NCBI GenBank assembly: GCA_031274075.1 | Contig: JAISQQ010000274.1 | Location: forward strand, 1-12,678 | DNA from: Accumulibacter sp. | GTDB taxonomy: Bacteria; Pseudomonadota; Gammaproteobacteria; Burkholderiales; Rhodocyclaceae | Length of the DNA stretch: 12,678 bases | Direction of reading: 5' to 3' | The notes under the pieces: model-generated | Seen by the model: only the letters and a program-made list of their open reading frames with translations | The model's database searches: none | What the model was told of the DNA's origin: nothing | Shown here: positions 1 to 12,134 of the stretch, one piece after another | How the letters are laid out: every line of letters begins with the position of its first letter | Numbering within the stretch: the stretch's first letter is position 1 | Made by a program: the position numbers and the translations under genes

Positions 1-548
1 CTGCCCGAGTGGAGCATCACCCAGACCTGGTTGGATTCGTCGAGGCAGACTTCGATGAAGTGGTTGCCTCCTCCCAGCGTTCCCATCTGGTTCATCCACT
101 TCGAGAACTTGCCGAAAGCCTTGAGCAACTGAGGATGCTTCTCCGTCATGGCGTCGAGACGCGCTTCAAAGGGCATGGCGGCATGAACCAGTACGTCGCG
201 GTCATGGTGTTGGGCGCGACCGACGGGCACATCGCGGGTAATCTGGTCGAATACTTTTTTCAGCGATTTTTCGTCCAGATCATTACCGGTGAGCGATAGC
301 CGACAGGCCACCATCCCGCAGCCAATGTCGACGCCGACGGCGGCCGGGATGATGGCTTTGTGCGTGGCAATCACCGAGCCAATCGTCGCGCCGATGCCGA
401 GATGCACATCCGGCATCGCGGCGACATGGTGGTGAATGAAAGGCAAACTGGCAATGTTCGACAACTGCTCCTTTGACCTTTCATCCACGTCATCCGTCCA
501 GATTTTCACTGGAACGCGTTGTGTTGCAATCACTTCCTTGATCGGCAT
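1..548 (-). CDS. rtcB: RNA-splicing ligase RtcB, N-terminal part (gene runs off the left edge)
   Basis: RtcB joins RNA 2',3'-cyclic phosphate or 3'-phosphate ends to 5'-OH ends using GTP and Mn2+; in bacteria it repairs tRNA and rRNA cut by ribotoxins. The 182 visible residues follow the RtcB family from the first residue: PDVHLG (46-51), GVDIGCGM (72-79, with D74 and C77 as expected metal ligands), GGGNHFIEV (159-167, with N162 and H163 at the guanylate/metal site) and the start of HSG at 180. About 220 further residues should lie left of the window. The ATG at 548 has a good AGGAG about 7 nt upstream. The gene is co-directional with the HNH gene (55-nt gap) and the tRNA cluster, which suggests a shared role in tRNA maintenance (inference). 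A weak terminator lies in the gap. No rtcA or rtcR is in view. The family call is very safe. Confidence 0.96.
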   Translation of the reverse strand, partial: MPIKEVIATQRVPVKIWTDDVDERSKEQLSNIASLPFIHHHVAAMPDVHLGIGATIGSVIATHKAIIPAAVGVDIGCGMVACRLSLTGNDLDEKSLKKVFDQITRDVPVGRAQHHDRDVLVHAAMPFEARLDAMTEKHPQLLKAFGKFSKWMNQMGTLGGGNHFIEVCLDESNQVWVMLHSG

Positions 549-583
549 TCTTACTCTCCTTCTTCTATTGATCATCCATCTTC

Positions 584-605
584 AAAAAAGCTCGCTGTGT
601 GAGCT
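584..605 (-). terminator. Short intrinsic terminator between HNH gene and rtcB
   Basis: On the minus strand AGCTC and GAGCT (605-601 with 593-589) form a 5-bp stem with a 7-nt loop, followed directly by six T (589-584). The hairpin overlaps the TAG stop of the HNH gene. The stem is short, so termination is probably partial. It would lower, not abolish, read-through from the tRNA/HNH unit into rtcB. Confidence 0.45.
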
Positions 606-1179
606 ATCCGAGAACCCGGCTATGCTTCGGCAGCCGTGCCGCCAGGAAATCCATCTGGTCGGCGAGAATTTCCCGCGACGACAAAATGAAGTGTTCCCAA
701 AGGCAGGGCACGTAAGGTACGAACAACAGTTGCATGTCCCGCGTCTGCTCGGGTCGACGGCCACCTTTGCGCTGGTTGCACGATTTGCACGCTGTGACTA
801 CATTGGTCCAGATATCCGGGCCACCTTGCACACGCGGTACGACATGGTCACAACTCAAATCCTTTGCTCCAAATTGATCACCGCAGTAGGCACAGGTATA
901 GCGGTCGCGACGAAACAACAAGGTATTCGTCAGCGGCAATTCCTTGCGCAACCAGACATCCGGTTTTCGACCGGCCAGAGCGATGATCGGCCGTAACTCG
1001 ATGGTCGATCGCTCCCCATGACGATTCCATCCGCCGTGAAAGACGAGGGTTTCATCACCCCATTGCCAAGCCACGCCGCCCCTTGCCACCGCTGTTATCG
1101 CTTGTTCCGCAGTGAGCCATTGCGCCGGGTTGCCGGCCACATCGAGTCCGAGTATCTGCATCATGGCAATCACCTTCAT
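604..1179 (-). CDS. HNH endonuclease
   Basis: A 191-residue protein with a classic HNH nuclease core: CAYC (C96, C99), CDHVVP (D111-H112, the metal/general-base pair), the asparagine in WTNVV (N126) and CKSC (C131, C134) with the following NQRKGG. The four cysteines form the usual structural zinc site. The N-terminal half (LGLDVAG...W, LRPIIALAG) resembles the common ~190-aa proteobacterial stand-alone HNH family. The substrate is unknown; most HNH enzymes cut DNA. The gene starts 46 nt after the CCA end of tRNA-Arg and ends 55 nt before rtcB, so it sits in the middle of the tRNA/RtcB unit. The start at 1179 has AAGGAGG but only a 3-4 nt spacer; ATG at 1164 or 1161 (MMQILG or MQILG, the usual family start) is an alternative. 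An open frame continues upstream through tRNA-Arg and is not coding there. Confidence 0.88.
   Translation of the reverse strand: MKVIAMMQILGLDVAGNPAQWLTAEQAITAVARGGVAWQWGDETLVFHGGWNRHGERSTIELRPIIALAGRKPDVWLRKELPLTNTLLFRRDRYTCAYCGDQFGAKDLSCDHVVPRVQGGPDIWTNVVTACKSCNQRKGGRRPEQTRDMQLLFVPYVPCLWEHFILSSREILADQMDFLAARLPKHSRVLG
630..644 (-). promoter_or_regulatory. Possible sigma54 promoter inside the 3' end of the HNH gene, reading toward rtcB
   Basis: The minus strand reads TGGC-N7-CTGC, which keeps the invariant GG-N10-GC spacing of sigma54 promoters but matches the rest of the consensus only partly. In E. coli the rtcBA operon is known to be sigma54/RtcR dependent, so a site just upstream of rtcB is of interest. 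It lies in coding sequence and upstream of the short terminator, so it may well be chance. Confidence 0.2.
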
Positions 1180-1225
1180 GTGCCTCCTTTTGGCGTGGAT
1201 TCGTTGGTTCGGATGCGGTTGTTTG

Positions 1226-1302
1226 TGGCATGCCCGACAGGAATTGAACCTGCAACCTCCGGCTTCGCAGACCGGCGCTCTGATCCATTGAGCTACGGGC
1301 AT
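1226..1302 (-). tRNA. tRNA-Arg(GCG)
   Basis: A complete 77-nt cloverleaf with encoded CCA. The acceptor stem is 7 bp (ATGCCCG with CGGGCAT), the D-stem is GCTC/GAGC, and the anticodon arm CCGGT-CTGCGAA-GCCGG gives anticodon GCG. The T-arm is GCAGG-TTCAATT-CCTGT and the discriminator is G. C35 and the D-loop A expected of arginine tRNAs are present. GCG is an unusual arginine anticodon for bacteria, which normally read CGC with the inosine form of ACG. It is the last tRNA before the HNH gene. Confidence 0.9.
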
Positions 1303-1306
1303 AAAG

Positions 1307-1383
1307 TGGTGCCGACACTCCGATTCGAACGGAGGTTTTCTCGCTTACAAGGCGAGCGCTCTGGCCAACTGAGCTATATCGGC
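1307..1383 (-). tRNA. tRNA-Thr(TGT)
   Basis: A 77-nt cloverleaf with encoded CCA. Acceptor GCCGATA pairs with TGTCGGC (one U-G pair). The D-stem is GCTC/GAGC. Anticodon arm CTCGC-CTTGTAA-GCGAG gives TGT, reading ACA. The T-arm is CTCCG-TTCGAAT-CGGAG and the discriminator is A. Only 4 nt separate it from tRNA-Arg, so the two must be processed from one transcript. Confidence 0.93.
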
Positions 1384-1389
1384 CTGAAT

Positions 1390-1475
1390 TGGACGACAGG
1401 GCGGATTCGAACCGCCGTGGGCTATTTGCCTTCAGTTTTGCAGACTGACGCCTTCAACCGCTCGGCCACTGTACA
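1390..1475 (-). tRNA. tRNA-Cys-like (GCA) with a class II, serine-type body
   Basis: The anticodon arm TCAGT-CTGCAAA-ACTGA gives anticodon GCA (Cys). The D-region GGCCGAGCGGTTGAAGGC and the long variable arm (GGC-AAATA-GCC stem-loop) are of the kind seen in serine tRNAs. The T-arm GGCGG-TTCGAAT-CCGCC is perfect. The 3' end CTGTCG-T-CCA shows U73, the cysteine discriminator, and an encoded CCA. The acceptor is weak: four clean pairs (ACAG/CTGT), then only a bulged U followed by G-C and U-G. The molecule therefore mixes a serine body with cysteine identity elements. It could be a functional recoding or allo-type tRNA, a tRNA mimic, or a decaying gene. Confidence 0.68.
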
Positions 1476-1482
1476 AAAAATA

Positions 1483-1558
1483 TGGCGCCTTCCCGCCGAA
1501 TCGAACGGCATCCTCCTGTTCTTCAGACAGGCGCGCAGACCACTTACGCCAGAAAGGC
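1483..1558 (-). tRNA. tRNA-Phe(GAA)
   Basis: A 76-nt cloverleaf with encoded CCA. Acceptor GCCTTTC pairs with GGAAGGC (one U-G). The D-stem is GCGT/GCGC. Anticodon arm CCTGT-CTGAAGA-ACAGG gives GAA. The T-arm is TGCCG-TTCGATT-CGGCG. The discriminator is G, whereas bacterial tRNA-Phe normally carries A73, a notable departure. It is the first of the four closely packed tRNAs. Confidence 0.88.
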
Positions 1559-1575
1559 CATTACTGTTGCTCCCC

Positions 1576-1616
1576 GCGAGTGAAACGGATTCATGATTCC
1601 GATCACAATCACTCGC
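1576..1616 (-). ncRNA. Structured hairpin just upstream of tRNA-Phe
   Basis: An uninterrupted 8-bp stem, GCGAGTGA with TCACTCGC, encloses 25 nt that can fold as CGGA/TCCG around an 8-nt loop containing CAT, or alternatively as TGAT-CGGA-ATCA. It lies 18 nt upstream of the tRNA-Phe 5' end on the same strand. It is too small for a tRNA and has no T-arm. It could be a leader or processing hairpin, a tRNA-like small RNA or a remnant. No known family is recognised. Confidence 0.35.
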
Positions 1617-1826
1617 CGGACGTCGGGCGCCTCTGTTCTCCATTGCCGAGGGAATGGACAGGCCAGCGGCGCGCCTGGGCCTATCGTCGGCAGAAAAGAG
1701 ATGTGTGAGGACATCATCCATTCCTGCTTCCGACAGTTCAACCGCATCCCGATTTTTCAAGAGCAAGCGCACTTTTTACGGTGCGAACCTTCCCATCGAG
1801 GAAGGATTTCCTGAACCGAAAAACAC
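1617..1826. other. Intergenic stretch without a supportable gene
   Basis: Open frames here overlap one another and lack ribosome binding sites. A 6-bp hairpin (CCTTCC/GGAAGG, 1788-1805) is visible. No clear promoter for the four-tRNA cluster was found by eye on the minus strand. Confidence 0.4.
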
Positions 1827-1859
1827 AAAGCCCGGATTCCTTGCGGAGATCCGGGCTTT
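1822..1859 (-). terminator. Intrinsic terminator downstream of tRNA(CAT)
   Basis: AAAGCCCGGAT (1827-1837) pairs perfectly with ATCCGGGCTTT (1849-1859), an 11-bp stem with an 11-nt loop. On the minus strand it is followed by GTGTTTTT, a usable T-tract. It would end the transcript that begins at the promoter at 2263-2291, separating tRNA(CAT) from the four-tRNA/HNH cluster unless there is read-through. On the plus strand the tail is poor in T. Confidence 0.7.
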
Positions 1860-2139
1860 GGCGTTTGTTGCTGCCAGGGGCGGATGGCTCAGGCCATTGG
1901 TCGCCCCTCCCGGATGTGCTTTGTGTCCAGATTCTGCAAATGAGCGAAGACTGGATGTCCAAAATCTGTACGGCGAAAGGAGAGTCGTGAAGCTATTCCA
2001 CTCAATGCCTCGCGGCGCCCCTCAAAGCGCGGTAAACGCTGGTCGCCAGCCATTGCTGGACGGCACGGCATACCGGATATGAGCGGATTGCGCGTTGTTG
2101 CGTTTGAGGTAATGGAACGAGTTTTCATGATGTTTTTGC
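1860..2139. other. 280-bp region between terminator and tRNA(CAT), no convincing gene
   Basis: Two weak candidates exist. One is an 80-codon minus-strand frame starting ATG at 2128. The other is a 31-codon plus-strand frame starting GTG at 1987 (VKLFHSMPRG...) behind GGAGAG. They overlap each other and neither resembles a family I can name with certainty. The region may hold remnants of decayed genes. Confidence 0.3.
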
Positions 2140-2212
2140 TTGCGGGAGATGGACTTGAACCACCGACCTCCAGGGTATGAACCTGGCACGCTGCCAACTG
2201 CGCTATCCCGCG
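2140..2212 (-). tRNA. tRNA-Met(CAT), initiator-like acceptor, no encoded CCA
   Basis: A 73-nt cloverleaf: acceptor CGCGGGA with TCCCGCA, D-stem GCGC/GCGT, anticodon arm CCAGG-TTCATAC-CCTGG (anticodon CAT), T-arm GGTGG-TTCAAGT-CCATC, discriminator A. The first acceptor pair is a C1-A72 mismatch, the hallmark of bacterial initiator tRNA. However, the D-stem has C11-G24 (elongator type), and the anticodon stem has AGG/CCT where initiators normally have three G-C pairs. The bases after A73 are GCA, so CCA must be added, unlike the other four tRNAs here. It could be an initiator variant, an elongator Met tRNA or, if the C is lysidinylated, tRNA-Ile2. Confidence 0.85.
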
Positions 2213-2262
2213 TCTGATCCTTTACGTTTTGCCAATTGCGGCTGTTTATCGAATGGGGACGG

Positions 2263-2291
2263 ATTATGGAGGCTCATTTTGAAAGAGTCAA
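2263..2291 (-). promoter_or_regulatory. Sigma70-type promoter for the tRNA(CAT) transcript
   Basis: On the minus strand a -35 box TTGACT (2291-2286) and a -10 box CATAAT (2268-2263) are separated by exactly 17 nt. The expected start at about 2256 is some 44 nt upstream of tRNA(CAT). The match is strong, as expected for a tRNA promoter, and it is divergent from the HTH gene promoter. Confidence 0.75.
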
Positions 2292-2308
2292 TCACTTTAT
2301 GAAAATAT

Positions 2309-2337
2309 TTTTGCCTTAGTGGTAATTTTGCTACACT
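2309..2337 (+). promoter_or_regulatory. Extended -10 promoter for the HTH gene
   Basis: TGCTACACT (2329-2337) is an extended -10 element (TGN plus TACACT) in an AT-rich stretch. The -35 is weak (TTTTGC at 2309-2314, 17-nt spacer). The expected start near 2344 is about 60 nt before the ATG at 2403. Confidence 0.5.
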
Positions 2338-2341
2338 GTCG

Positions 2342-2363
2342 GGATCGGCAATCCTGCTGATCC
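2342..2363. repeat. Inverted repeat GGATC...GATCC at the HTH gene transcription start
   Basis: GGATC (2342-2346) and GATCC (2359-2363) are spaced by 12 nt. The site lies just downstream of the -10 box, where an autoregulatory HTH protein could bind. A 5-bp arm is short, so operator function is only a suggestion. Confidence 0.25.
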
Positions 2364-2402
2364 GTCTATCGCGGACCCTGTCGTTTTGTGAGGATCGACA
2401 CC

Positions 2403-2687
2403 ATGTCCCGTACTACCCCGGCCACACTGGCCTTTCGCATTCGCGTCGTGATGGCCGAGCGCGGCATCCGTTCTGTGGCTTCGCTGCAACGCAAGCTGAA
2501 ATCGATCGGCGTTGAAATCTCCGTTCCTCAACTGATACGGATCGTCGACGGACAATCCAGCCACGTATCTACAATCGTTCTTGGCGGCCTGATCGCTGTG
2601 CTCCAATGCGGGATCGGGGATTTGATAGCGGTCATTGAAAACGAAACCGCCGATTTGATTGGATCGCCCGTACCGGCCTACCGATAA
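2403..2687 (+). CDS. Small Cro/C1-type helix-turn-helix DNA-binding protein
   Basis: A 94-residue protein. Residues about 12-80 form a compact helical domain with the pattern of small XRE/Cro-type regulators: IRVVMAERGI, SLQRKLKSIGVEIS, VPQLIRIVDG and the closing LIAVLQCGIGDLI. It resembles the YozG/HTH_26-like group. The domain is nearly the whole protein, with no ligand-binding or catalytic part. The ATG at 2403 is chosen because AGGA (2391-2394) lies 8 nt upstream; a GTG at 2388 in the same frame would add five residues and lose the RBS. The gene has its own extended -10 promoter and is divergent from the tRNA array, so control of the array or of itself is possible (inference). Target unknown. 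Confidence 0.75.
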   Translation: MSRTTPATLAFRIRVVMAERGIRSVASLQRKLKSIGVEISVPQLIRIVDGQSSHVSTIVLGGLIAVLQCGIGDLIAVIENETADLIGSPVPAYR

Positions 2688-2748
2688 GGACAAGATTTGC
2701 GGGCGCTTCGCGCCCGGTAGCTGAACCGTCCTCTGTCTTCTGTCCTCC
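2688..2748 (+). repeat. GGACAG-type intergenic repeat, copy A (right part)
   Basis: Contains the hairpin GGGCGC-TTC-GCGCCC (2701-2715), then CGGTAGCTGAACCGTCCTCTG and more CTGTCCTC units. The same order is seen in copy B at 4443-4530. The left CAGAGGACAG arm present in copy B is missing here. The hairpin may double as a transcription stop for the HTH gene, though no T-tract follows. Confidence 0.6.
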
Positions 2749-2895
2749 GATCCCGTGTGACATATTTCCTCGTCGTCGCGGCTTGCGGCTGGATAGACTC
2801 GTTCACCGTGCGATATAGCCGGTCTGCCGGCGGAGAGGAAACCGGCCGGATCGGATATCGGACGAAACTGAGCGGACGAAGCGGAGCGGGTGGGG

Positions 2896-3663
2896 ATGAA
2901 AGTCAAGGTACTGGGATGCAGCGGCGGCATCGGCGGGCGGGGTCTGCGCACCACCTCGCTGCTTGTCGACGGCGATATCCTGATCGACGCCGGGACGGGC
3001 CTCGCGGACCTTTCGCTCGACGAACTGGCCGCCATCGACCACGTGTTCGTCACCCATTCCCACCTCGACCATATCGCCGTGCTGCCGTTGATGATCGACG
3101 CGGTGGCCCGGCTGCGCGACTCGCCGGTGACGGTCTACGCCAACGCGGCGACGCTGGAGGCGATGCGCGCGCACATATTCAACGGGGCGATCTGGCCGGA
3201 TTTTTCCGAGATCGTCGTCCGCCAATGCCGGATCATGAAATACGAGACGATCGACGTGGGACAGCGCGTCCGCCTGGGTGGGCGCAGCGTCGCCGCCGTT
3301 CCCGCCGAGCATTCGGTTTCCTCGGTCGGCTACCAGCTCGACTCCGGCGAGGCCAGCCTGGTCTTCACCGGCGACACGATGGTCAATGATTCGTTCTGGC
3401 TGGCGATCAACCGGGTCGCCAACCTGCGCTACCTGATCATCGAGGCCGCCTTTTCCGATCGCGACGAGGCGCTGGCGCTCAGTTCAAAGCATCTGTGTCC
3501 GCGCCTGCTGTTCGCGGAACTGGCCAAATTGACCGTTCCCGCGCAAGTCTTCGTCACCCACCTGAAACCGGGGCAGACCGAGATCATCGCCGACGAACTC
3601 GAAAAGCGGGGAGGGCGTTTCCCTCCCGGCATCCTGTGCAAGGATCAGGTCTTCGAGTTTTGA
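2896..3663 (+). CDS. Metallo-beta-lactamase-fold 3',5'-cyclic-nucleotide phosphodiesterase (class II type)
   Basis: A 255-residue cytosolic metallohydrolase with no signal peptide. The N-terminal LGCSGG and the metal site THSHLDH (H54, H56, D58, H59) are clear. Later ligands include AEHS (H139), FTGDT (D160), SKHLCP (H199) and THLKPG (H222). The pattern and length fit the PDEase_II/CpdP-like group that hydrolyses cAMP or cGMP, a frequent betaproteobacterial protein; the specific substrate is inferred. ATG at 2896 is chosen because GGAG at 2883-2886 lies 9 nt upstream; a GTG at 2890 would add two residues. It lies 83 nt upstream of rpe on the same strand. The preceding 150 bp show no clear promoter. 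Confidence 0.85.
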   Translation: MKVKVLGCSGGIGGRGLRTTSLLVDGDILIDAGTGLADLSLDELAAIDHVFVTHSHLDHIAVLPLMIDAVARLRDSPVTVYANAATLEAMRAHIFNGAIWPDFSEIVVRQCRIMKYETIDVGQRVRLGGRSVAAVPAEHSVSSVGYQLDSGEASLVFTGDTMVNDSFWLAINRVANLRYLIIEAAFSDRDEALALSSKHLCPRLLFAELAKLTVPAQVFVTHLKPGQTEIIADELEKRGGRFPPGILCKDQVFEF

Positions 3664-3692
3664 GGGCGTCCAGGAGCGAAGCGCTCGCGTCC

Positions 3693-3723
3693 TTGTGGCG
3701 AAGGCTTCCCGTCGCGGTAGAAT
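3693..3723 (+). promoter_or_regulatory. Possible promoter upstream of rpe
   Basis: TAGAAT (3718-3723) is a good -10 box; the best -35, TTGTGG (3693-3698), is 19 nt away, longer than ideal. A start near 3730 would give a short leader of about 17 nt. Confidence 0.3.
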
Positions 3724-3746
3724 GAAGCCTTTTCGCGGACGCAAGC

Positions 3747-4436
3747 ATGTATCTCATCGCTCCCAGCATCCTTTCGGCCGACTTCGCGCGGCTGGGCGAG
3801 GAAGTGCTCAATGTCGTCGATTCCGGCGCGGACTGGATTCATTTCGACGTGATGGACAACCACTACGTGCCCAACATGACCGTCGGCCCGATCGTGTGCC
3901 AGGCGATCCGGCCGATAACCCAGGCGGTGATCGACGTCCACCTGATGGTCAAGCCGGTCGACCGGCTGATCGGCGATTTCGCCAAGGCCGGCGCGAACCT
4001 CGTCAGCTTCCACCCGGAAGCCTCGGAGCACATCGACCGCAGCCTGTCGCTGATCCGCGAGAACGGCTGCCAGGCCGGGCTGGTGTTCAATCCCGCGACG
4101 CCGCTGCATTACATGGACTACGTGATGGACAAGCTCGATCTGGTGCTGCTGATGGGCGTCAATCCGGGCTTCGGCGGCCAGCGGTTCATTCCTTCGACGG
4201 CGGGCAAATTGTATGAGGCGCGCGAGCGCGTCGAGAAGCACGAACGGGAAACGGGCCACCGCGTCCGCGTCGAGATCGACGGCGGGGTGAAGGTGGACAA
4301 CATCGCGGCCATCGCCCTGGCCGGCGCCGATACCTTCGTCGCCGGATCGGCGATCTTCGAAGCCGGCAAGGACGGCGATCCGCACCGCTACGACTCCGTG
4401 ATCGCGGCCATGCGCGCCGAATTGGCGCGGGTATAG
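3747..4436 (+). CDS. rpe: Ribulose-phosphate 3-epimerase
   Basis: Interconverts D-ribulose 5-phosphate and D-xylulose 5-phosphate in the pentose phosphate pathway (and in the Calvin cycle where present). The 229 residues cover the whole TIM barrel. APSILSADF (5-13) holds the substrate serine. [12 protein letters not shown] (32-43, H32 and D34), DVHLMV (63-68, H65) and EIDGGV (176-181, D178) supply the four divalent metal ligands. NPATP (115-119) and [10 protein letters not shown] (136-145) bind phosphate and form the flexible loop. The length is normal and no catalytic residue is missing. The ATG at 3747 is the natural family start ([13 protein letters not shown]), although the ribosome site upstream is weak. 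The phosphodiesterase gene lies before it and a palindromic repeat right after its stop; gph and trpE, common followers, are absent. Confidence 0.97.
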
Positions 4437-4442
4437 TGTTCA

Positions 4443-4530
4443 GGGGACAGAGGACAGGAGACAGTAATATTTGTGGGCGCGAAGCGCCCGGTAACTGGAC
4501 AGTCCTCTGTCCTCTGTTTTCTGTCCTCTG
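4443..4530. repeat. GGACAG-type palindromic intergenic repeat, copy B (complete)
   Basis: An imperfect palindrome: GGGGACAGAGGACAGGAGACAG at the left, GGGCGC-GAA-GCGCCC hairpin in the centre (4475-4489), and CTGTCCTCTG units at the right. It begins 6 nt after the rpe stop codon. Relative to copy A the hairpin loop is GAA instead of TTC, as if the central hairpin were inverted. It may act as an mRNA end or stability element for rpe. Confidence 0.65.
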
Positions 4531-4567
4531 GCAATGAAATCGATGTTATATGTCAAAGGGGAAATTC

Positions 4568-5608
4568 ATGGAAGCGAAAGCTTGTGTATTGCATTCGGCG
4601 AAGGATTTGCGCGTCGAGGATGTGCCGGTCGCCGAGATGGGCGACGATCAGGTGCTGGTGCGGATTGGCGCCGGCGGCATCTGCGGTTCGGACCTGCACT
4701 ATTACCTCGACGGCGGTTTCGGCGTGGTGCGCGTCAAGGAGCCGATGATCCTCGGCCATGAAGTCGCCGGCACCGTCGAAGCGGTCGGCGCCAGGGTCAC
4801 CAGGGTCAAGCCCGGCGACCGCATCGCCCTCAATCCCAGCCGGCCGTGCGGCCAGTGCGAATTCTGCCAGAGCGGCGAGCAGCAGCATTGCCTCGACATG
4901 TGGTTCTACGGCAGCGCCCAGCGCACGCCGCACAGCCAGGGCGCCTTCCGCGAGCGCATCGTGGCCGGCGAATTCCAGTGCGAACCGGTTGGCGACGGCG
5001 TTTCCATTGGCGAGGCGGCGTGCTGCGAACCGCTGTCCGTCGCCCTGCACGCCGTCCAGCAGCCGGGTTCGCTGACCGGCAAGCGGGTGCTGGTGACCGG
5101 TTCCGGCCCGATCGGCGCGCTGGTCATCGCCGCCGCGCGCTACGCCGGCGCGCTGGAAGTCGTGGCCACCGACCTGCACGACGCGGCGCTGAAAAAGGCG
5201 GTCGAGATGGGCGCCACGCGCACCGTCAACGTGGCGCAGGCGCCCGGCCTAGCGGCCGGAGAATTCACCGCCCGGAAGGGGTATTTCGACGTCGCCATCG
5301 AATGCACCGGCGCCGGCGGAGTGATCAAGAGCGTGCTGCCCGTGTTGCGTCCGCGCGGCGCGCTGGTGCAGGTCGGCACGACCGGCGAGGTGCCGGTTCC
5401 GATCGACGCCGTCGTCGGCAAGGAAATCCGCTTCTTCGGCTCTTCCCGCTTCCACCGCGAATACGCGCTCGCGGCCCGCCTGATCAAGGAAGGACGGATC
5501 GACGTCAAGCCGATCATCACCGCCACCCTGCCGCTCGAACGCGCCGTCGAAGCCTTCCAGATGGCAGCCGACCGCAAGGCGCAGATGAAAGTCCAGCTGA
5601 CGTTCTGA
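4568..5608 (+). CDS. Zinc-dependent alcohol dehydrogenase, L-idonate 5-dehydrogenase-like
   Basis: A 346-residue medium-chain dehydrogenase/reductase. GGICGSDLHYY (37-46) carries catalytic-zinc ligand C39, GHEVAG (63-68) supplies H64 and E65, and C94, C97, C100 and C108 form the structural zinc lobe. EP at 154-155 and the Rossmann GSGPIG (178-183) for NAD(P) follow. The wording GGICGSDLHYY and the length match E. coli IdnD (343 aa), which oxidises L-idonate to 5-ketogluconate; sorbitol or other polyol dehydrogenases of the same family are alternatives. The ATG at 4568 is preferred because AAAGGGGA ends 6-7 nt upstream; an ATG at 4550 would add six residues. The damaged SDR downstream may once have been its metabolic partner (inference). 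Confidence 0.88.
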   Translation: MEAKACVLHSAKDLRVEDVPVAEMGDDQVLVRIGAGGICGSDLHYYLDGGFGVVRVKEPMILGHEVAGTVEAVGARVTRVKPGDRIALNPSRPCGQCEFCQSGEQQHCLDMWFYGSAQRTPHSQGAFRERIVAGEFQCEPVGDGVSIGEAACCEPLSVALHAVQQPGSLTGKRVLVTGSGPIGALVIAAARYAGALEVVATDLHDAALKKAVEMGATRTVNVAQAPGLAAGEFTARKGYFDVAIECTGAGGVIKSVLPVLRPRGALVQVGTTGEVPVPIDAVVGKEIRFFGSSRFHREYALAARLIKEGRIDVKPIITATLPLERAVEAFQMAADRKAQMKVQLTF

Positions 5609-5630
5609 TTGGAGCCTGCTTGCGATTTTC

Positions 5631-5667
5631 CCTGGGAGCGCGGGGCAATCGTCCCGCGTTCCCCAGG
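5631..5667 (+). terminator. GC-rich hairpin after the dehydrogenase gene
   Basis: CCTGGGAGCGCGGG (5631-5644) pairs imperfectly with CCCGCGTTCCCCAGG (5653-5667), 22 nt after the stop codon. There is no T-tract, so it may be an mRNA-stabilising or factor-dependent stop. The GGGAGCGCGGG motif recurs at 5977-5987, 6016-6026, 6187-6211 and 6242-6266, so it also belongs to a local repeat family. Confidence 0.4.
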
Positions 5668-5707
5668 GTATCCATGAATCGACCGGCGCACGCGAAAATG
5701 ACGGCGC

Positions 5708-5757
5708 TTACCGGGCGCTTCGCGTCCGCAAGAATCCTGACATCTGACACCTGATCC
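5708..5757 (-). repeat. GGACAG-type repeat, diverged copy C in reverse orientation
   Basis: TTACCGGGCGCTTCGCGTCC followed by TGACATCTGACACCTGATCC matches the reverse complement of copy B (4443-4530) with substitutions. The central hairpin is weakened by one change. Confidence 0.4.
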
Positions 5758-5764
5758 CTGCCCC

Positions 5765-5910
5765 GTAGGGCGGGAAAGCGCAGCGCCTCCCGCCGGTCGT
5801 TCCCTCCGGCGGCATCGCCGCCGCTTATCGTACTCGGCGGCCTTTTCATCGTGCGGCGCGTTGCGCCGTGGAAAAGGACCGGCGGGAGGCGCTTCGCTTT
5901 CCCGCCCTAC
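5765..5910. repeat. 146-bp palindromic element with 34-bp inverted ends
   Basis: The left arm begins GTAGGGCGGGAAAGCGCAGC (5765-5798). The right arm (5877-5910) is its reverse complement with one mismatch in 34 positions. The interior has smaller GC-rich palindromes (GGCGGCATCGCCGCC near 5809-5823). It has no coding capacity and looks like a mobile non-autonomous repeat. A second, truncated copy lies at 6070-6182. Confidence 0.75.
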
Positions 5911-6069
5911 CGAACCGTCGCTGTTTTCACGCACACCGGTCGACTTTACGTTCATGGAGAGCGTGCGATGGCCCTGGGGAGCGCGGGTATCTTAGAACCT
6001 GTTCACGATCTTCTCTGGGAGCGCGGCAAGGCCATTGCTCTATGTAGCGTCGTTGGCATTGGCCAGACC

Positions 6070-6182
6070 GTAGGGCGGGAAAGCGTAGCGCCTCCCGCCG
6101 GTCGTTCTCTCCGGCGGCGCAGCCGCCGCTCATCGTATTCGACGGCCATTGAATCATATGGCGCGTTGCATGACATGGAAAG
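6070..6182 (+). repeat. Second, truncated copy of the 146-bp palindromic element
   Basis: Starts GTAGGGCGGGAAAGCGTAGC and follows the copy at 5765 for about 110 bp with scattered substitutions, then loses the right arm. It sits inside the MITE. Confidence 0.65.
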
Positions 6183-6186
6183 AACC

Positions 6187-6266
6187 TGGGAGCGCGGGGC
6201 TTCTGTCCCGCAACAGCGGTGGTATCGCTCTCCCGGTCATTGCGGGGCAGAAGCCCCGCGCTCCCA
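6187..6266. repeat. 25-bp inverted repeat pair inside the MITE
   Basis: TGGGAGCGCGGGGCTTCTGT... (6187-6211) pairs with 6242-6266, 24 of 25 positions, with a 30-nt spacer. Single-stranded it would form a very stable hairpin. Confidence 0.7.
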
Positions 6267-6286
6267 GAGAAGCTCGCAAACAGCTT

Positions 6287-6983
6287 CTAAACGACCATCG
6301 GCGTCACGGCGCCGTCCATCGCCAGGATGGCGCCGGAGATGTAGCTGGCCCGAGCCGAGCAGAGGAAGACCACGGCGTCGGCGATCTCCTCGGGGGTGGC
6401 GATGCGGCCCAGCGGCAGATCCGAGGACGCCTTGGCGAGCGCTTCCTCGATCGTGCCGCCGTTCATCCGCGCCTCGGCCTGCATACCTGTCTGCAGGCGT
6501 TCCGTCAAGGTCAGGCCGGGATTGACGGCGTTGACCCGCACGCCGCGCGGTCCATAAGCCGCCGCCAGTCCGGCGCTGACCAGCATCAGCGCGGCGTTGG
6601 CCGCGCCGCCCGGCAGGTGGATTTTCTTGGCGAACTTTCCGCCCATGCCGACGACGTTGAGGACGACGCCCGCGCCACGCGCCGCCATGCGCTTGATGAC
6701 TGGATCGATCAGATGGATATAGGTGAAATACTTCGCCTCCATCGCCTCGTGCCAGTGCGGCGGCGGCAACGTCGCGCAGGTTCGCCGCGAACGAGGCCAG
6801 GCGTTCGCGCGCGTCGGGAAAGCACGCCAGCAAGGAGCGCGCGGCGGCTTCGAGATTGTCCGGCGCGCGCGAGACGAGGCTGACGCGGGCGCCTTCTCGC
6901 AGAAAACCCTTCGCGCACGCCAGGCCAATGCCCTTGCTGCCGCCACCGATCAGTACATGCTTGCCTTGCAGTTCGAGTTCCAT
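6287..6983 (-). pseudogene. Short-chain dehydrogenase/reductase (SDR), disrupted by deletion and frameshift
   Basis: The first frame from ATG 6983 gives a normal SDR start: LQGKHVLIGGGSKGIG with the NAD(P) glycine motif at residues 13-20, up to about residue 76 (LRDVAAAA). A second frame gives the rest: HEAMEAKYFTYI, VVLNVVGMGGK, RVNAVNPG, IADAVVFLCS and ISGAILAMDG, ending at TAG 6287. The join lies in the GCC-repeat stretch at about 6755-6770. About 30 residues, including the usual NNAG region, are missing, so a deletion not divisible by three broke the gene. Where a classical SDR has YxxxK, this one reads PGGAANAAL, so even the intact ancestor was probably a non-canonical SDR. AGTGAGG lies just upstream of the start. 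A sequencing error cannot explain the missing residues. Confidence 0.8.
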
Positions 6984-7029
6984 GACTGTTTACCTCACTG
7001 TTGAAAAAAAGCATTGGCCGCCTTCAACA

Positions 7030-7117
7030 CGGAGAAAACGGGGTATCGCGGAGAAAATCAAATCCGGGATTCGGGGTTCCCCCAGGGTTTCTCCGTATTC
7101 TTGCGTGTCTCCGCGAT
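7030..7117. repeat. Nested inverted repeats (CGGAGAAA / ATCGCGGAGA)
   Basis: CGGAGAAA (7030-7037) is inverted at 7088-7095, and ATCGCGGAGA (7045-7054) is inverted perfectly at 7108-7117. The arms interleave, so they cannot all form one simple hairpin. It lies between the SDR start and the transposase remnant. Confidence 0.5.
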
Positions 7118-7199
7118 CTTGGTGTCGAAAGGCTTTTGGCGGTATCCGCGGATGATAGCGCGTTTCCCCACGCTGGCCGGCGATCCGTAGAAATACGGG

Positions 7200-7564
7200 C
7201 TTGTCGCGATGCCGCCGGGATCAAGCCCGCCGAAGTGACAGACAGAAAGGGCGTACTGGAGGTATTGGAGCGCAACCAGCCGAACTTGAAGCGGGTGAAA
7301 AGCCTGCTGTGTGACAGCGGCTACACCGGGGAACCGTTCGCCCAGGGCGTGCGTGACATTCTGGGAGGGCATGTCACGGTACAGATCGCCAAATGAAACG
7401 AATGGCACACCTTCAAAGTCATGCCCAAACGCTGAGTCGTCGAGCGTAGCTTTGCCTGGCTGGAGAAGAACCGGAGACTGTGGAAGCACTGCGAACGAAA
7501 ACTCAACACCCGCTTACAGTTCGTCCTTCCAGCCTTCTTGGCGCTCGTACTCAAAAGATCGTGA
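7200..7564 (+). pseudogene. IS5-family transposase remnant (C-terminal part)
   Basis: The frame reads AEVTDRKG, KSLLCDSGYTGEPFA, NEWHTFKVMPKR, VVERSFAWLEKNRRLWKHCE and RKLNTRLQ, typical of the C-terminal half of IS5-family DDE transposases. The second catalytic Asp (CDSGYTG) and the Glu (VVERSF) are present, but the part with the first Asp is gone. Two in-frame TGA codons interrupt it: at 7394-7396, where relatives usually have Arg, and at 7433-7435, where they have Trp. The last TGA (7562-7564) lies inside the terminal repeat at 7555-7573, a usual arrangement in this family. It is dead as an enzyme. Confidence 0.85.
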
Positions 7565-7573
7565 ACAGGTTCT
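7555..7573 (-). repeat. Right terminal inverted repeat of the IS5-family remnant
   Basis: AAGATCGTGAACAGGTTCT is the exact reverse complement of the MITE left end at 5994-6012. No matching left end of the original IS is seen next to the transposase remnant. Confidence 0.7.
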
Positions 7574-7605
7574 TGGGGGAGCTGACTCCTGATTCGGACT
7601 TCGCC

Positions 7606-7631
7606 CCCGGCGGCTTCGACAAAGCGCCGGG
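7606..7631 (-). terminator. GC-rich hairpin downstream of the kinase operon
   Basis: CCCGGCG (7606-7612) and CGCCGGG (7625-7631) form a perfect 7-bp stem with a 12-nt loop, about 120 nt past the kinase stop codon. No T-tract follows on the minus strand, so a terminator role is tentative. The rest of 7574-7751 shows no gene. Confidence 0.3.
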
Positions 7632-7751
7632 AGGTTTCCGCTCACGGGCCGGGTTGGCCGTCGTTGAATCGGCGGCGCTATTGCGCCGGAAGCTCACGAT
7701 CTACAGTCCGGGCTACGCTGGCCGTTGGCGGAACTCTCACCGTTGAAAGAA

Positions 7752-10706
7752 TCAATTTCCCCGTCCGAGCAAGACTCGAATAATGTCCTCCGCTTCTCCG
7801 AAATCCGCGGTGAGGATGTAGTCCGCTATTTCAGAGACGGCCTCGCGCATTTTCCCGGCGAGTCGCATCGCCTGCAAGCGGGTCAGCGCGGCATCCATGC
7901 TGTCCATATCCTTCGCGTTCAGAGCTTCCAGCAAACGCGCCAGGGCCTCCTCCGTTTCCAGACCGGCTTCCTGTTCACCATCGTCAGACCGCGCCAGCGC
8001 CGGAATCTCGCCGATTTGCGCCACCAGCGCGACAAGCTCTTGCCGGAACGGCGGGAGCTCGTTGCAAATCACGCGCGCGTCGCCCTCGCGGGCCGCTTTC
8101 TCCAGCAGGGCGGCGACTTGCGACAGGCCGTCCGCGCCGATATTGGCCAGGGCGCTTTTCAAGGCATGAACCAAAGTGGTGAAGGAGCGCAGGGAAGCGT
8201 CGTCCGGCTCTTTTTCGAGCAACGGGAAACCGGCCCGCGCATCCCGGCAGAACACTTCCAGCAAATCGAGGTAGCGGCTTGGCGATCCGCCGATCCGGGC
8301 AATCCCGGCGGCGACATCCACGCCCGCGATTTCGGGAACGGAAGACTCTGGCATCACGGTCTCCAAAGCGTTCTCCTCTTCTTTCAGCGCGGTCCGGCGT
8401 TTGTCGGCGGGTATCCATTTTTTCAATACCGCGTCCAGCTTGGATACTTCGATGGGCTTGGAAAGAAAATCATTGAAGCCGTTCTCCAAAAACATCTCCC
8501 TCATACCCGATACCGCGTTGGCCGTCAGAGCGACGATGGGCATCGTCCGGCACCTTTCCTCATCCATCGCCCGGATGACGTGAGTCGCCTCCACACCGTC
8601 CATCTCCGGCATCATGTGATCCATCAGCACCAGGTCAAAGGGACGCTCGCGCACCAGATCCACCGCCTCGCGGCCATTCAGACAGGTAAACACGCGCATT
8701 TTGTAGGGAACGAGCAAACCTTCGGCCACCAGCAGATTGCTGGGAAAATCGTCAACGATCAGCACGTCGGCTTCCAGCGCGATGAAGGTGACGCGTTGCG
8801 CCTCCGCGCGCCTGGCCGGCATGTCCGCCATATCTCCCATCGGCTTCCAGTCGTCTACGATCTGCGTCATGGTGGCGGTAAAGACGGAACCCCTGCCGTA
8901 TTCGCTGCTTACCGTGATGTCGCCGCTCATGGCCTGGCACAGACTGCGGGCTATGGCCAGTCCAAGGCCCGTGCCCTCGATCCTGCTGTTACGCTTTTCG
9001 TCGATGCGCGCGAACTCTCCGAACAGCTTCGGCATGTCCTCCTGCCTGATGCCAATGCCGCTGTCCTCGACGACGAAGGTCAGCCCGATCGCGTTTTCTC
9101 CCACAGGCTTGCAGGAAATGGAGAACTTGATGAAACCCTCGTTCGTGTACTTCACGGCATTGCTGAGCAGATTGAGCAGGATCTGCTTGATGCGGCCCGC
9201 GTCGCCGATCATGGCGCGGGGGATATCGGGAGACGCATCCACGATCAGTTCGAGCGGCGTTTCCGCTATCCGGACGCGGATGATGGTCAGCGCGTCGTTC
9301 AGCAGAGAGGCGGTATCGTAGGGCGCGGGATTGATCGGCAGGTTGCCGGATTCGATTTTGGAAAAATCCAGAATGTCGTTGATGATGGCCAGCAAACTCG
9401 CCCCGGCGCTCTTGATGCCCGTGATGTACTCCAGCGCCTTGGGCTTGCCGTATTCTCTCTGCGCCAGCTCGCTCAAACCGATGATGGCGTTCATCGGCGT
9501 GCGGATCTCATGGCTCATGCGGGCCAGAAAGCCCGATTTTGCTTCCGTTGCCCGTTCCGCCTCGATCCGCTGGATTTGTTCGGACAAATCGTGGAAGCAG
9601 ACCGCCAAAAAAGGTTCGCTGCCCTGGTCGATATAATCGATCAGTATCGTGCACGGCAAGCGCGTACCGTCTTTCCTGGCAATCGACGTATGGTCAAAGC
9701 GGATGTGCAGGTTTTCCCGCAACGCCGCGAGAATCGTGCCCCAGGTATCGAAAACGCCGTCGTCATATGCCACGTTGCGTAAAAACGCCAAATGGTCTCC
9801 TCCGACCATTTCCGCCGGTCCGTCATACCCGAGGGCAGCGCACGCCGCCCGATTGACGTAAGTGATTTTCCCTGTGATGTCAAACCAGACGACCGGCGCG
9901 GACAAATTATCCACCGTCATCTGCATGGCCAGCAATTTTTGCCGGCCGCGGACTTCTCCGGTAATGTCTCTGAGCGTGTAAATTTCCAGCGCGCCGCGCT
10001 GAATGAACTCGGCGTGCACCATCTTGCCGGACATGTCGATAATCCGGCCATCCTTGTGATGAATGATGGCCTGGTGGTATTGCTTTGTCTGCCGGACCTT
10101 GGCGACCAAATCGACGTGTACTTTCCAGTCGACGAGATAGCGGGCAAAAAAATCCTCGACTTCCTCGAGCGGCTGACCGTAACGCAGGTCTTTGTCCCAG
10201 CCCGGAAAGAGTGAAGAATACCTGGCGTTGGCCAAGGGTTTTTCCAATCCTTCCACGATCGCGAAAATGGCGTCGCCGGACGCATCGAGAACCGCCGTGA
10301 TGATCTGGAGACGCAATTGCAACTGTTCATCCTGCCGGCATCGTTCGGTGATGTCGCGGTAAGTCCATACCTCGATTTCACTGCCGTCCTCGGCTTTGAT
10401 GACTTTGCCGATTACCTGCAACACACGTCCATCGAGCAGATGTATTCTTCCTTCGCGGCGTTCCCGCGTCCGGCGGACTTCGGCAACGAGTTCGAGGAGC
10501 ACGTCGACATCGCTAAGATATTGCAGATAAAAATTACGCACGACCTCGAGCGGTTCGTTGTAGCGCAAATTTTCCCAGCCCGGAAACAACGCAGAATAGA
10601 TGGCGGTGGCGTGCGGTTTTTCAATTGATTCCGACAGGGCGAGCACGCCGTCCAGCGAGGCGTCAAAAATAGCGTCCAGTAACTGCTTGTGTTTATCCAT
10701 AGCCAT
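7752..10706 (-). CDS. Soluble hybrid sensor histidine kinase (PAS-PAS-PAS-HisKA-HATPase-REC-HPt)
   Basis: 984 residues without a membrane segment or signal peptide, so a cytosolic sensor. Residues 12-120 and 141-250 are two tandem, clearly related PAS-like units (shared LFPGW, LRY.PLE.V, YL.D, LVA.VR.T, RDIT). A third PAS spans about 261-375. HisKA has MSHEIRTPMNAIIG with H399. The ATPase has the N-box NLLSNAVKY (512-520), DSGIGI (548-553) and GTGLGLAI (578-585). REC has VDD (651-653), phospho-acceptor D696, T728 and K750. An HPt domain has VHALKSALANIG with H847, and a helical tail runs to 984. All phosphorelay residues are intact. ATG 10706 has only a weak ribosome site; ATG 10700 or TTG 10733 are alternatives. 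It follows the HD-GYP regulator by about 54 nt, its likely phosphotransfer partner (inference). Confidence 0.95.
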   Translation of the reverse strand: MAMDKHKQLLDAIFDASLDGVLALSESIEKPHATAIYSALFPGWENLRYNEPLEVVRNFYLQYLSDVDVLLELVAEVRRTRERREGRIHLLDGRVLQVIGKVIKAEDGSEIEVWTYRDITERCRQDEQLQLRLQIITAVLDASGDAIFAIVEGLEKPLANARYSSLFPGWDKDLRYGQPLEEVEDFFARYLVDWKVHVDLVAKVRQTKQYHQAIIHHKDGRIIDMSGKMVHAEFIQRGALEIYTLRDITGEVRGRQKLLAMQMTVDNLSAPVVWFDITGKITYVNRAACAALGYDGPAEMVGGDHLAFLRNVAYDDGVFDTWGTILAALRENLHIRFDHTSIARKDGTRLPCTILIDYIDQGSEPFLAVCFHDLSEQIQRIEAERATEAKSGFLARMSHEIRTPMNAIIGLSELAQREYGKPKALEYITGIKSAGASLLAIINDILDFSKIESGNLPINPAPYDTASLLNDALTIIRVRIAETPLELIVDASPDIPRAMIGDAGRIKQILLNLLSNAVKYTNEGFIKFSISCKPVGENAIGLTFVVEDSGIGIRQEDMPKLFGEFARIDEKRNSRIEGTGLGLAIARSLCQAMSGDITVSSEYGRGSVFTATMTQIVDDWKPMGDMADMPARRAEAQRVTFIALEADVLIVDDFPSNLLVAEGLLVPYKMRVFTCLNGREAVDLVRERPFDLVLMDHMMPEMDGVEATHVIRAMDEERCRTMPIVALTANAVSGMREMFLENGFNDFLSKPIEVSKLDAVLKKWIPADKRRTALKEEENALETVMPESSVPEIAGVDVAAGIARIGGSPSRYLDLLEVFCRDARAGFPLLEKEPDDASLRSFTTLVHALKSALANIGADGLSQVAALLEKAAREGDARVICNELPPFRQELVALVAQIGEIPALARSDDGEQEAGLETEEALARLLEALNAKDMDSMDAALTRLQAMRLAGKMREAVSEIADYILTADFGEAEDIIRVLLGRGN

Positions 10707-10760
10707 TCTTACTTTCGATGTACGACACGGCAAATTTTGCTGACGACCCGCTCCGCTAAC

Positions 10761-11840
10761 TTATGACGACATGGAGTTTGACGACCGCCGGAACGTCCCG
10801 GCCACCTGTTCAAACAGGTCGACCAGCGTTGGATCAAAGTGCGTCCGCTTGCCTTCCATGATGATCCGGGCGGCTTCCTCGTGGCTGAACGCCTTTTTAT
10901 AGGGGCGTTTGGAAGTCAGGGCGTCGTACACGTCGACTACCGCCATCATGCGTCCGAGCAGCGGAATATCCTCGCCGGAAAGGCCGCGGGGATACCCGGA
11001 GCCGTCCCATTTTTCGTGATGAAACGCGGCGAAAATCTTGGCGTATTGCAAGAAACGGCTGTCTTCCTCGCCGTCTTCCAACCTTTCGATGAAGCCCACG
11101 CCGAAGACCACATGCCGTTTTATCTCGTCGAATTCCTCCCTGGTCAGCTTTCCCGGTTTTTTGAGGATGCTGTCGCTGATGGCGATCTTGCCGACATCGT
11201 GCAGTTGGGAAGACTGAAGAAGCAGTTCGATATCCCATTCGGAAGTCTGTTCCTTCCAGGATTCCACATTGGTCACGGCGGACAGGAGAATCCTCAGGTA
11301 GCGCTGCGTGTTCGCGATGTGGCTCCCGGTGACGTCGTCACGGCCTTCGACCATCTCCGCCATGGCTGTCAGAATCTTGTTCTGGAGCTTGACGATGGTC
11401 CTGGTTTTCGCCTCCACCATATTCTGGAGGTTGTCGTTGTACTTCTGGAGCGCGCGTTTCTGATCTTCCATGAGCAGATGCAACTCGACGCGCTTGCGCA
11501 GCAGCGGCGGCGAAAACGGTTTCGTGACGTAATCAACCGCGCCGAGCCGCAGCCCCTCCAGTTCATCCTCGCTTTCGTCCAGGGCGGTCAGGAATATGAC
11601 GGGAATGTCCCGCGTTTTCTGCTTCTCCTTGAGCGCCTTGATCGCCTCGAAGCCGTTCATTCCGGGCATGTCGACATCCAGAAGGATCAGTTCCGGCTTG
11701 CTCCATTCCAGCGTTTCCAGCATTTTCGCAGCGGAGGAAACCGTCAGCACCATGTAGCCTTCCGACAGCGCCGTTTTTCCGGTCAGAAGATTGGTGCGGT
11801 TGTCGTCCACCAGCATGATCAGTTTGCGGGAGCTTTCCAT
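10761..11840 (-). CDS. Response regulator with HD-GYP domain, c-di-GMP phosphodiesterase
   Basis: 359 residues, RpfG-like. The receiver domain (about 7-120) has D12 and D13, phospho-acceptor D55 (LILLDVDMPGMNG), T85 and K107 (TKPFS). A coiled-coil-like linker (125-155) leads to a complete HD-GYP domain: GSHIANTQRY (H174), LHDVGKIAI (HD at 214-215), KRHVVFGVGF, FHHEKWDGSGYPRGL (273-287, with the full HHE..DG.GYP signature) and VVDVYDALTSKRPYK (301-315). All residues of active c-di-GMP phosphodiesterases seem present. ATG 11840 is preceded by GAGGTGA about 8 nt upstream. It is the first secure gene of the operon; the PAS hybrid kinase follows directly. Phosphorylation at D55 probably tunes c-di-GMP breakdown, and with it motility or biofilm behaviour (inference). 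Confidence 0.96.
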   Translation of the reverse strand: MESSRKLIMLVDDNRTNLLTGKTALSEGYMVLTVSSAAKMLETLEWSKPELILLDVDMPGMNGFEAIKALKEKQKTRDIPVIFLTALDESEDELEGLRLGAVDYVTKPFSPPLLRKRVELHLLMEDQKRALQKYNDNLQNMVEAKTRTIVKLQNKILTAMAEMVEGRDDVTGSHIANTQRYLRILLSAVTNVESWKEQTSEWDIELLLQSSQLHDVGKIAISDSILKKPGKLTREEFDEIKRHVVFGVGFIERLEDGEEDSRFLQYAKIFAAFHHEKWDGSGYPRGLSGEDIPLLGRMMAVVDVYDALTSKRPYKKAFSHEEAARIIMEGKRTHFDPTLVDLFEQVAGTFRRSSNSMSS

Positions 11841-11853
11841 GCGTCTTTCACCT

Positions 11854-12010
11854 CATTGGCTCATTCAGTCGGGAAAAGTCCGTAAGCGTCGCCGGAATCG
11901 GGCCTTGCCCGCCCGTCAAAAAACATGACGAGAGAAAAACCAGACTGACGATCAGCGGACCGGCGGCCAGCCGCCTCGCCGGCCTTTCCGCGCACTCGCA
12001 AAGGCTTCAT
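11854..12010 (-). pseudogene. Short lipoprotein-like reading frame, apparently frameshifted
   Basis: ATG 12010 has a strong GGAGGAG ribosome site and gives MKPLRVRGKAGEA, a basic n-region. In the next frame follows RLAAGPLIVSLVFLSSC, a textbook hydrophobic core with a lipobox (LSSC), then FLTGGQGPIPATLTDFSRLNEPMR and a TGA overlapping the ribosome site of the HD-GYP gene. The second frame has no ATG, GTG or TTG of its own before the lipobox. One frameshift near 11970-11980 would join the two into a lipoprotein of about 55 residues. It may be a small lipoprotein remnant, or chance. Confidence 0.35.
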
Positions 12011-12019
12011 GGGCGCACT

Positions 12020-12029
12020 CCTCCGGAGG
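12020..12029. promoter_or_regulatory. Palindrome CCTCCGGAGG covering the leader ribosome binding site
   Basis: A perfect 10-bp palindrome containing the GGAGG of the ribosome site for ATG 12010. It lies directly after the T-tract of the upstream terminator, so the site may also pair with the C/U-rich start of the leader (CCTTCCTCCC near 12093-12102). Confidence 0.35.
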
Positions 12030-12033
12030 AAAC

Positions 12034-12076
12034 GAGAAAAAGCCCGGCCCATTTCGCAAGACGAAACGGGCCGGGC
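12034..12076 (-). terminator. Intrinsic terminator in the leader of the HD-GYP/kinase operon
   Basis: GCCCGGCCC (12076-12068 on the minus strand) pairs with GGGCCGGGC (12050-12042), one A-C mismatch, then TTTCG/CGAAA and a 5-nt loop. On the minus strand five T (12041-12037) follow directly, then CTCG. It lies between a sigma54 promoter (12120-12134) and the first gene of the operon. It is thus either an attenuator or the 3' end of a small RNA of about 70 nt. Confidence 0.75.
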
Positions 12077-12119
12077 CATCGACAGCGAGTCAAGGGAGGA
12101 AGGGAAGAAAGGAAAAACC

Positions 12120-12134
12120 GCAAGAATCGTGCCA
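12120..12134 (-). promoter_or_regulatory. Sigma54 (RpoN) promoter
   Basis: The minus strand reads TGGCACG-ATTC-TTGC, matching the sigma54 consensus TGGCACG-N4-TTGC at every fixed position; only the following base is G rather than A/T. The expected start is about 12 nt downstream, near 12108. A bound enhancer protein is required for such promoters; no enhancer-binding protein gene is in the window. Confidence 0.75.

Follow-up and report, generated by a model that had tools for sequence, protein, structure and literature searches.

The stretch analysed here (the window, 12,678 nucleotides) is contig JAISQQ010000274.1, positions 1 to 12,678, from an Accumulibacter sp. draft genome. Within window positions 1-2212, all on the minus strand, lies an island in which a tRNA with the anticodon CAU, the tRNAs for Phe, Cys, Thr and Arg, a gene for an HNH nuclease and rtcB, encoding the RNA ligase RtcB, follow one another in order of transcription. 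The first tRNA is separated from the other four by a leader that resembles a ribosome-mediated attenuator, and a gene for a helix-turn-helix (HTH) protein diverges from the island. These parts, their order and their recurrence against controls are established. From them we infer a mechanism, which we favour with a confidence a little above even: a stress-switched operon that would replace and repair tRNA under the control of a repressor and a ribosome-mediated attenuator. The initial annotation had named the tRNAs, the nuclease and the ligase correctly; it overlooked the HTH gene and the leader, and it is these two that point to stalled translation as the likely signal.

An attenuator-like leader before the array

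The leader of the window holds, on the minus strand, a predicted small open reading frame (sORF) of 79 amino acids (1889..2128) ahead of an intrinsic terminator with a 12-bp stem (1826..1860; 68 of 71 cells canonical) and a T-tract (1819-1825); a leader reading frame before a terminator, as expected of a ribosome-mediated attenuator, is thus present. A hairpin surrounds the sORF stop codon (1877..1907; 52 of 66 cells canonical, with three double-changed pairs over six leaders). The end of the sORF carries the motif ATCCGGG (1909..1915), which can pair with CCCGGAT (1849..1855) inside the 5' arm of the terminator, and the two stretches form the arms of a candidate antiterminator in the minimum-free-energy structure predicted for the truncated transcript. 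With the six leaders of the window's group, truncation of the transcript before the terminator 3' arm gave one common predicted fold, in which the stem between the sORF end and the terminator 5' arm encloses the stop-codon hairpin and a second hairpin. This stem is kept at loci L003, L080 and L082 despite differing bases.

Leaders of 29 islands were compared under a rule, written after the leaders had been inspected, that asked for a stem of at least 9 with a T-tract and a reading frame of 30-110 codons ending 5-45 nucleotides ahead of it. The rule was passed by 26 of the 29, and a terminator is present in 27, as against 2 of 580 dinucleotide shuffles, none of 18 sequences preceding the remaining tRNAs of the host (three being shorter than the others) and none of 64 upstream of HNH genes that lack tRNAs. 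The sORFs, picked by eye, stop 13-37 nucleotides ahead of the terminator. Their pairwise ratios of nonsynonymous to synonymous substitution rates (dN/dS) are 0.23-0.74 in 12 of 14 pairs (0.50 between the window and L002) and 0.96 and 1.35 in two close pairs, values that suggest mild purifying selection in the 12. Pairing of the sORF end with the terminator 5' arm extends over a mean of 7.1 nucleotides across 28 leaders, compared to 4.8 in shuffles (P = 3e-5, the leaders not being independent). Very small islands, L082 among them, retain the leader, and a tRNA-Met belongs to 7 of the 29 leaders. At L084, L085 and L213, the sORF end is a Shine-Dalgarno-like stretch directly followed by a start codon (ATG) and a stop that lie within a palindrome and nearly form a start-stop element.

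Below the terminator, the window contains a site like the boxA of rRNA (rrn) operons (1752..1765, minus strand), with 12 of 14 matches to the rrn consensus. Enough sequence between terminator and array was available in 18 leaders; a site matching at 10 or more of the 14 positions occurs in 14 of them, where 0.79 would be expected, and in none of 18 regions upstream of housekeeping tRNA genes. A boxA helps RNA polymerase through untranslated RNA, and the position of the boxA-like site, beyond the terminator, suggests that polymerase reads on into the array. At the other end of the leader, a sigma-70-like promoter, TTGACT-17-CATAAT (2263..2291, minus strand; 10 of 12 matches), has similarly placed counterparts in relatives; window positions 1-3000 hold two such sites compared to 1.6 in shuffles, so that the call is weak by itself. 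The divergent HTH gene is of the Cro/C1 type (2388..2687, plus strand, likely start ATG 2403; PF13443, 34.8 bits). A permissive Rfam search of the 581-nucleotide spacer between the leader tRNA and tRNA-Phe gave, besides tRNAs, only sub-threshold matches, including Thr_leader (E 0.31) over the attenuator. The spacer also holds a hairpin (1627..1672, minus strand) that is shared by eye with L002 and L079 and belongs to no Rfam family. Between terminator and array, L002, L079 and L080 encode a small basic reading frame (MKPxIKPRNPxV...KFRKAG), the L002 copy of which has no Pfam match.

The composition of the leader peptides was also compared. They are 33-107 amino acids long, and 13 of 27 contain all 20 amino acids, as do only 1 and 3 of 27 in the other two reading frames (P = 1.5e-4 and 2.9e-3, not independent); the 13 include six related cyanobacterial leaders and two further pairs of close relatives. 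When the coverage was tested over 11 groups, protein windows as the null gave a Fisher P of 0.002, and each of two other nulls gave 0.02; the signal holds up but is not strong. Four leaders added later have 17-19 of the 20, and the peptide of the window has 18, lacking W and Y. This coverage suggests that the leader may sample the whole tRNA pool. It is conceivable, and we propose it tentatively as something short of an even prospect, that the leader peptide serves as a general tRNA sensor: with nearly every amino acid in the peptide, a single ribosome pass would test all tRNAs, and loss of any charged tRNA would lead to antitermination and to the production of spare tRNAs and repair enzymes, alike in the betaproteobacterial islands and for the HNH gene of cyanobacterial plasmid arrays.

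A family of islands with tRNAs of their own

Analysis with ARAGORN, Rfam and Pfam bore out the placement of five tRNAs, HNH and rtcB on one strand. Rfam scored all five tRNAs above its cutoff (45.8-69.5 bits), and ARAGORN found four of them by default and the Cys tRNA under a relaxed setting. The genes are, all on the minus strand, the leader tRNA (CAU; 2140..2212), initiator-like by eye (C1 opposite A72), tRNA-Phe (GAA; 1483..1558), tRNA-Cys (GCA; 1390..1475), tRNA-Thr (UGU; 1307..1383), tRNA-Arg (GCG; 1226..1302), the HNH gene for 191 amino acids (604..1179; PF01844, PF14279) and rtcB (3..548; PF01139, 2.8e-42, 145.9 bits against a cutoff of 27). The contig begins at window base 1 and thus cuts rtcB, leaving its N-terminal part (positions 1-188 of the 426 of the PF01139 profile); a complete homologue is present in L080. 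The short spacing of 4-18 nucleotides first reported holds inside the array (Arg-Thr 4, Thr-Cys 6, Cys-Phe 7) and fails at the other joints (Arg-HNH 46, HNH-rtcB 55, Phe-Met 581). The unusual tRNA features are real: the leader tRNA has no encoded CCA and ends in GCA, and the Cys tRNA combines a class II body and a long variable arm with an acceptor stem one base short, the loss being read by eye against L002. The absent CCA and the damaged acceptor stem suggest decay, or else an assembly error.

The tRNAs of the island form a set separate from those of the host. The Phe tRNA is 98.7% identical to the L002 island copy and, at an E value of 1e-3, does not match the Phe tRNA of the host; the Cys tRNA is 93.6% identical to its L002 copy; the Arg tRNA is 92.2% identical to its L002 copy and at most 76% identical, end to end, to host Arg tRNAs; and the leader tRNA shares 90-95% identity with its counterparts in L084 and L002 and 73% with the host Met tRNA. 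The Thr tRNA had no match in the small tRNA set used for comparison. The host genome, 88.7% complete, gave 32 tRNA matches, five of these in the window; the host tRNAs read include Phe(GAA), Met(CAU) and five Arg genes, and Cys and Thr(UGU) were not found among them, the genome being incomplete. That the neighbourhood is coincidental, an HNH gene and rtcB happening to adjoin an ordinary tRNA cluster, is therefore very improbable and was rejected, given that the island tRNAs resemble those of other islands and not the host's and that the gene order recurs in several genera and families. In its favour, no more than one same-strand tRNA lies in the 1.5 kb upstream of 82 of 89 HNH relatives among the matches listed.

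The linkage of tRNAs, HNH and rtcB was found again in other genomes. A search of GTDB genomes with the HNH protein gave 28 loci; with the five nearest (73-83% identity), rtcB lies directly behind HNH in four and same-strand tRNAs lie upstream in four, and the remaining 23 (41-52% identity) have neither an array near HNH nor rtcB. A wider survey detected relatives in 147 of 399 genomes and covered 89 among the matches listed (29 loci without the window's own, and 60 more), of which 6 carry four tRNAs or more on the same strand in the 1.5 kb upstream and 16 carry any tRNA there. Homologues of the HTH protein stand divergent to tRNA leaders in other islands: 12 matches, including the window, were found in 395 genomes at the family level (seven with tRNAs in the stretch retrieved, one cut by a contig end, four with none), and 11, again including the window, with a profile of six sequences in 399 genomes at the order level (eight with tRNAs in the stretch, one with a leader and no tRNA found, two in which neither was seen). 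The islands range from large (31 tRNAs and then HNH in L083, 30 and then HNH in L084, 26 tRNAs in L167) to small ones like the window (L003/L081, L079, L080 and L082). With five tRNAs, the window falls short of the many densely packed tRNAs by which a tRNA array unit is defined, and it does have the HNH gene; it is a shrunken member of the wider island family, a reduced copy in which some tRNAs have decayed.

This decay bears on an alternative, namely that the island is a failing piece of a mobile tRNA array in which HNH acts as a homing or mobility enzyme and rtcB is a passenger, any expression serving the element, for example against host tRNA nucleases. We regard this as unlikely, if still worth weighing. 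The small size of the array, its damaged tRNAs and the variable content of the islands agree with it, as do the tRNA arrays found at 17 of the 22 loci on plasmids or phages that hold HNH relatives (picked by eye; no array at five) and the frequency of HNH genes in mycobacterial arrays, where they have been read as homing enzymes (PMC5966550; this and the other papers cited are represented here by parts of their text). However, the place of HNH at the array end is conserved across islands, its position after the array and before rtcB is constant in several families, a Ro60/Rsr-like protein substitutes for it in two loci, and the leader is preserved in very small islands. HNH itself may act in RNA processing, in DNA cutting for mobility or in defence. 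As for a Septu-type nuclease, the match to the PtuB model was weak (30.5 bits over the HNH motif) and the same-strand neighbours are tRNAs and rtcB with no PtuA ATPase; this candidate was rejected (Septu is reported, in an abstract, to cleave tRNA-Tyr; PMC13096335). A viral origin of the HTH protein was likewise rejected, 30 pattern matches in viral contigs having yielded no relatives, and a scan of viral contigs for HNH gave four distant loci.

The idea of an island of spare tRNAs with a repair ligase, put forward in the initial annotation, gains from the recurring linkage to rtcB or Rsr and from the Anabaena regulon described below, and loses in that linkage to rtcB is a minority trait. The position of rtcB varies: it follows HNH in L168, separates the tRNAs from HNH in L172, is embedded in the array of L212 and sits upstream of the HTH gene in L169, and L171 has HNH and rtcB with no tRNAs. 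In L079 and L080, where HNH was not found, the Rsr-like protein stands in its place before rtcB, an arrangement that links the islands to the published rsr-yrlBA-rtcBA RNA repair operon (PMC7790460). That operon is driven by RtcR (PMC7790460), whereas the window island has the HTH gene and a sigma-70-like promoter. Rsr beside RtcB is not found in the window, and Rfam at the gathering score detected only tRNAs, and no YrlA RNA, in the window and six relatives.

Several further observations were made among these loci. In eight genomes that belong to one genus (L132, L142, L143, L144, L145, L152, L158 and L159), a lone tRNA-Sec gene precedes the HNH relative on the same strand at a distance of 90-158 bp. 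The tRNA array of a Variovorax plasmid (L192; NZ_LR594664.1 70899-71960) contains a gene annotated as an RNA ligase family protein, a second in-array ligase; a tmRNA gene lies in a Pseudarthrobacter array (L197), and another Variovorax array (L181) is near a release-factor-like gene. The L002 contig bears the label Akkermansiaceae, yet the nearest counterparts of the tRNAs, HTH and HNH of its island are in betaproteobacterial islands, which may reflect a binning error or transfer of the island. Beyond the HTH gene, the window continues with genes for a metallo-beta-lactamase-fold protein, a ribulose-phosphate epimerase and a zinc dehydrogenase; within 7752-11840, a long minus-strand frame appears by eye to encode a hybrid sensor kinase-like protein, and another frame a response regulator-like one.

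Relation to known systems

The closest published parallel is the trn operon of Anabaena PCC 7120, an L-array with an adjacent HNH gene (all8564) and with rtcB (all3526) in the same regulon, silent until translation stress (PMC10272220, PMC9938897). Loss of its repressor, TrcR, de-represses the tRNA operon, the HNH gene and rtcB, and all are up under chloramphenicol (PMC10272220, PMC9938897). TrcR is of the RHH family, whereas the repressor candidate of the window is a Cro/C1-type HTH protein; and in Anabaena rtcB lies elsewhere in the genome and the array has its own promoter, whereas in the window rtcB is part of the island. The available text of the TrcR paper mentions no leader, attenuation or terminator (PMC10272220), and inspection of the window leader by eye revealed no site like that of TrcR. 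Related cyanobacterial plasmids do, like the window, have an sORF and a terminator, placed before HNH: at L183 and L185-L189, a stretch like the TrcR motif, an sORF of 70-73 amino acids (all 20 represented) and a terminator all precede the HNH gene, and L190 departs from this pattern in the sequence preceding the sORF end. In L189, from Kovacikia, a further sORF and hairpin appear by eye to separate a TrcR-type promoter from the tRNA array.

The cyanobacterial loci also bear on the possibility that the sORF encodes a small protein in its own right and has a terminator of its own, the array being transcribed from a promoter below it. We consider this improbable, more so than the mobile-array account. 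The mild purifying selection on the sORF would fit it, and the promoter-like stretch that the cyanobacterial array has behind HNH agrees with the published trn promoter (PMC10272220). On the other hand, the sORF peptides belong to no Pfam family and vary in length, no sigma-70-like site was found on the minus strand between the terminator and the array of the window, and both the antiterminator pairing and the boxA-like site below the terminator speak against it.

Mycobacterial tRNA array units share with the islands an array with HNH, in many cases an XRE regulator, and tRNAs unlike the host's (PMC5966550, PMC12803027). The M. avium array has 26-27 tRNAs compared to the five of the window, and RtcB goes unmentioned in the parts of the text available (PMC5966550, PMC12803027); its authors gave the role of the array as unknown (PMC12803027). 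Attenuators of the trp and his type consist of a leader reading frame, a terminator and a competing antiterminator. The islands have the first two and a candidate for the third; they differ in that the peptides have no run of a single amino acid and contain nearly all amino acids, and in that the controlled genes are for tRNAs and RNA repair. Mycobacterial tRNA arrays with HNH and XRE were already known, as were the induction by stress of the Anabaena array together with HNH and rtcB, the part of RtcB and Rsr in RNA repair, and attenuation as such. A leader-peptide attenuator with boxA before tRNA arrays was not found in the literature searched, which did not include a 2021 paper on the Anabaena array that could hold part of it; nor did that search yield rtcB inside HTH-linked betaproteobacterial tRNA arrays or Rsr replacing HNH there. 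A link to allo-tRNA was set aside, no paper in the literature searched having both RtcB and allo-tRNA.

A proposed switch for tRNA replacement and repair

A number of observations count against a stress-switched operon with an attenuator, or narrow it. For the window alone, the fold is not significantly better than in shuffles (P = 0.33), the duplex test gave p = 0.60 (p <= 0.05 in 11 of 25 leaders), and the amino-acid coverage of the peptide is not significant (P = 0.55). In scoring by fixed alignment columns, 31 of the 42 cells of the antiterminator are canonical, and none of its pairs shows a double change. The leaders are mutually related, which makes the P values too small, and the sORF starts, like the leader rule, were fixed after inspection. 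An HTH gene of the window's type is present at 17 of the 29 leader loci and so is not universal; as to its operator, a perfect 6-bp palindrome was found in 5 of 16 leaders, compared to 1.3 expected, and none in the window. L217 has a leader and no tRNA in the stretch, and rtcB lies within 1.5 kb downstream in 2 of the 89 HNH relatives among the matches listed. At the three cyanobacterial loci examined, the array lies behind HNH and a second promoter-like stretch, such that an attenuator there would act on HNH first.

Given the organization of the island together with the predicted folds, the repressor and attenuator are proposed to function as follows. The divergent HTH protein would repress the promoter and keep the island silent. 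Once transcription begins, the small leader reading frame would be made, and a ribosome that reaches its stop codon would cover its end, allowing the terminator to fold and transcription to stop. If translation stalls within the sORF, or never begins, its free end would pair with the 5' arm of the terminator in a three-way junction, and polymerase would read through. The boxA-like site, as in rRNA operons, would then aid polymerase through the untranslated array. Spare tRNAs, HNH and RtcB (Rsr and RtcB in two relatives) would be produced, and damaged tRNA thereby replaced and resealed. A recurring leader able to read translation stalls would provide a concrete trigger for switching on a tRNA array, and would join the array, HNH, Rsr and RtcB in one response.

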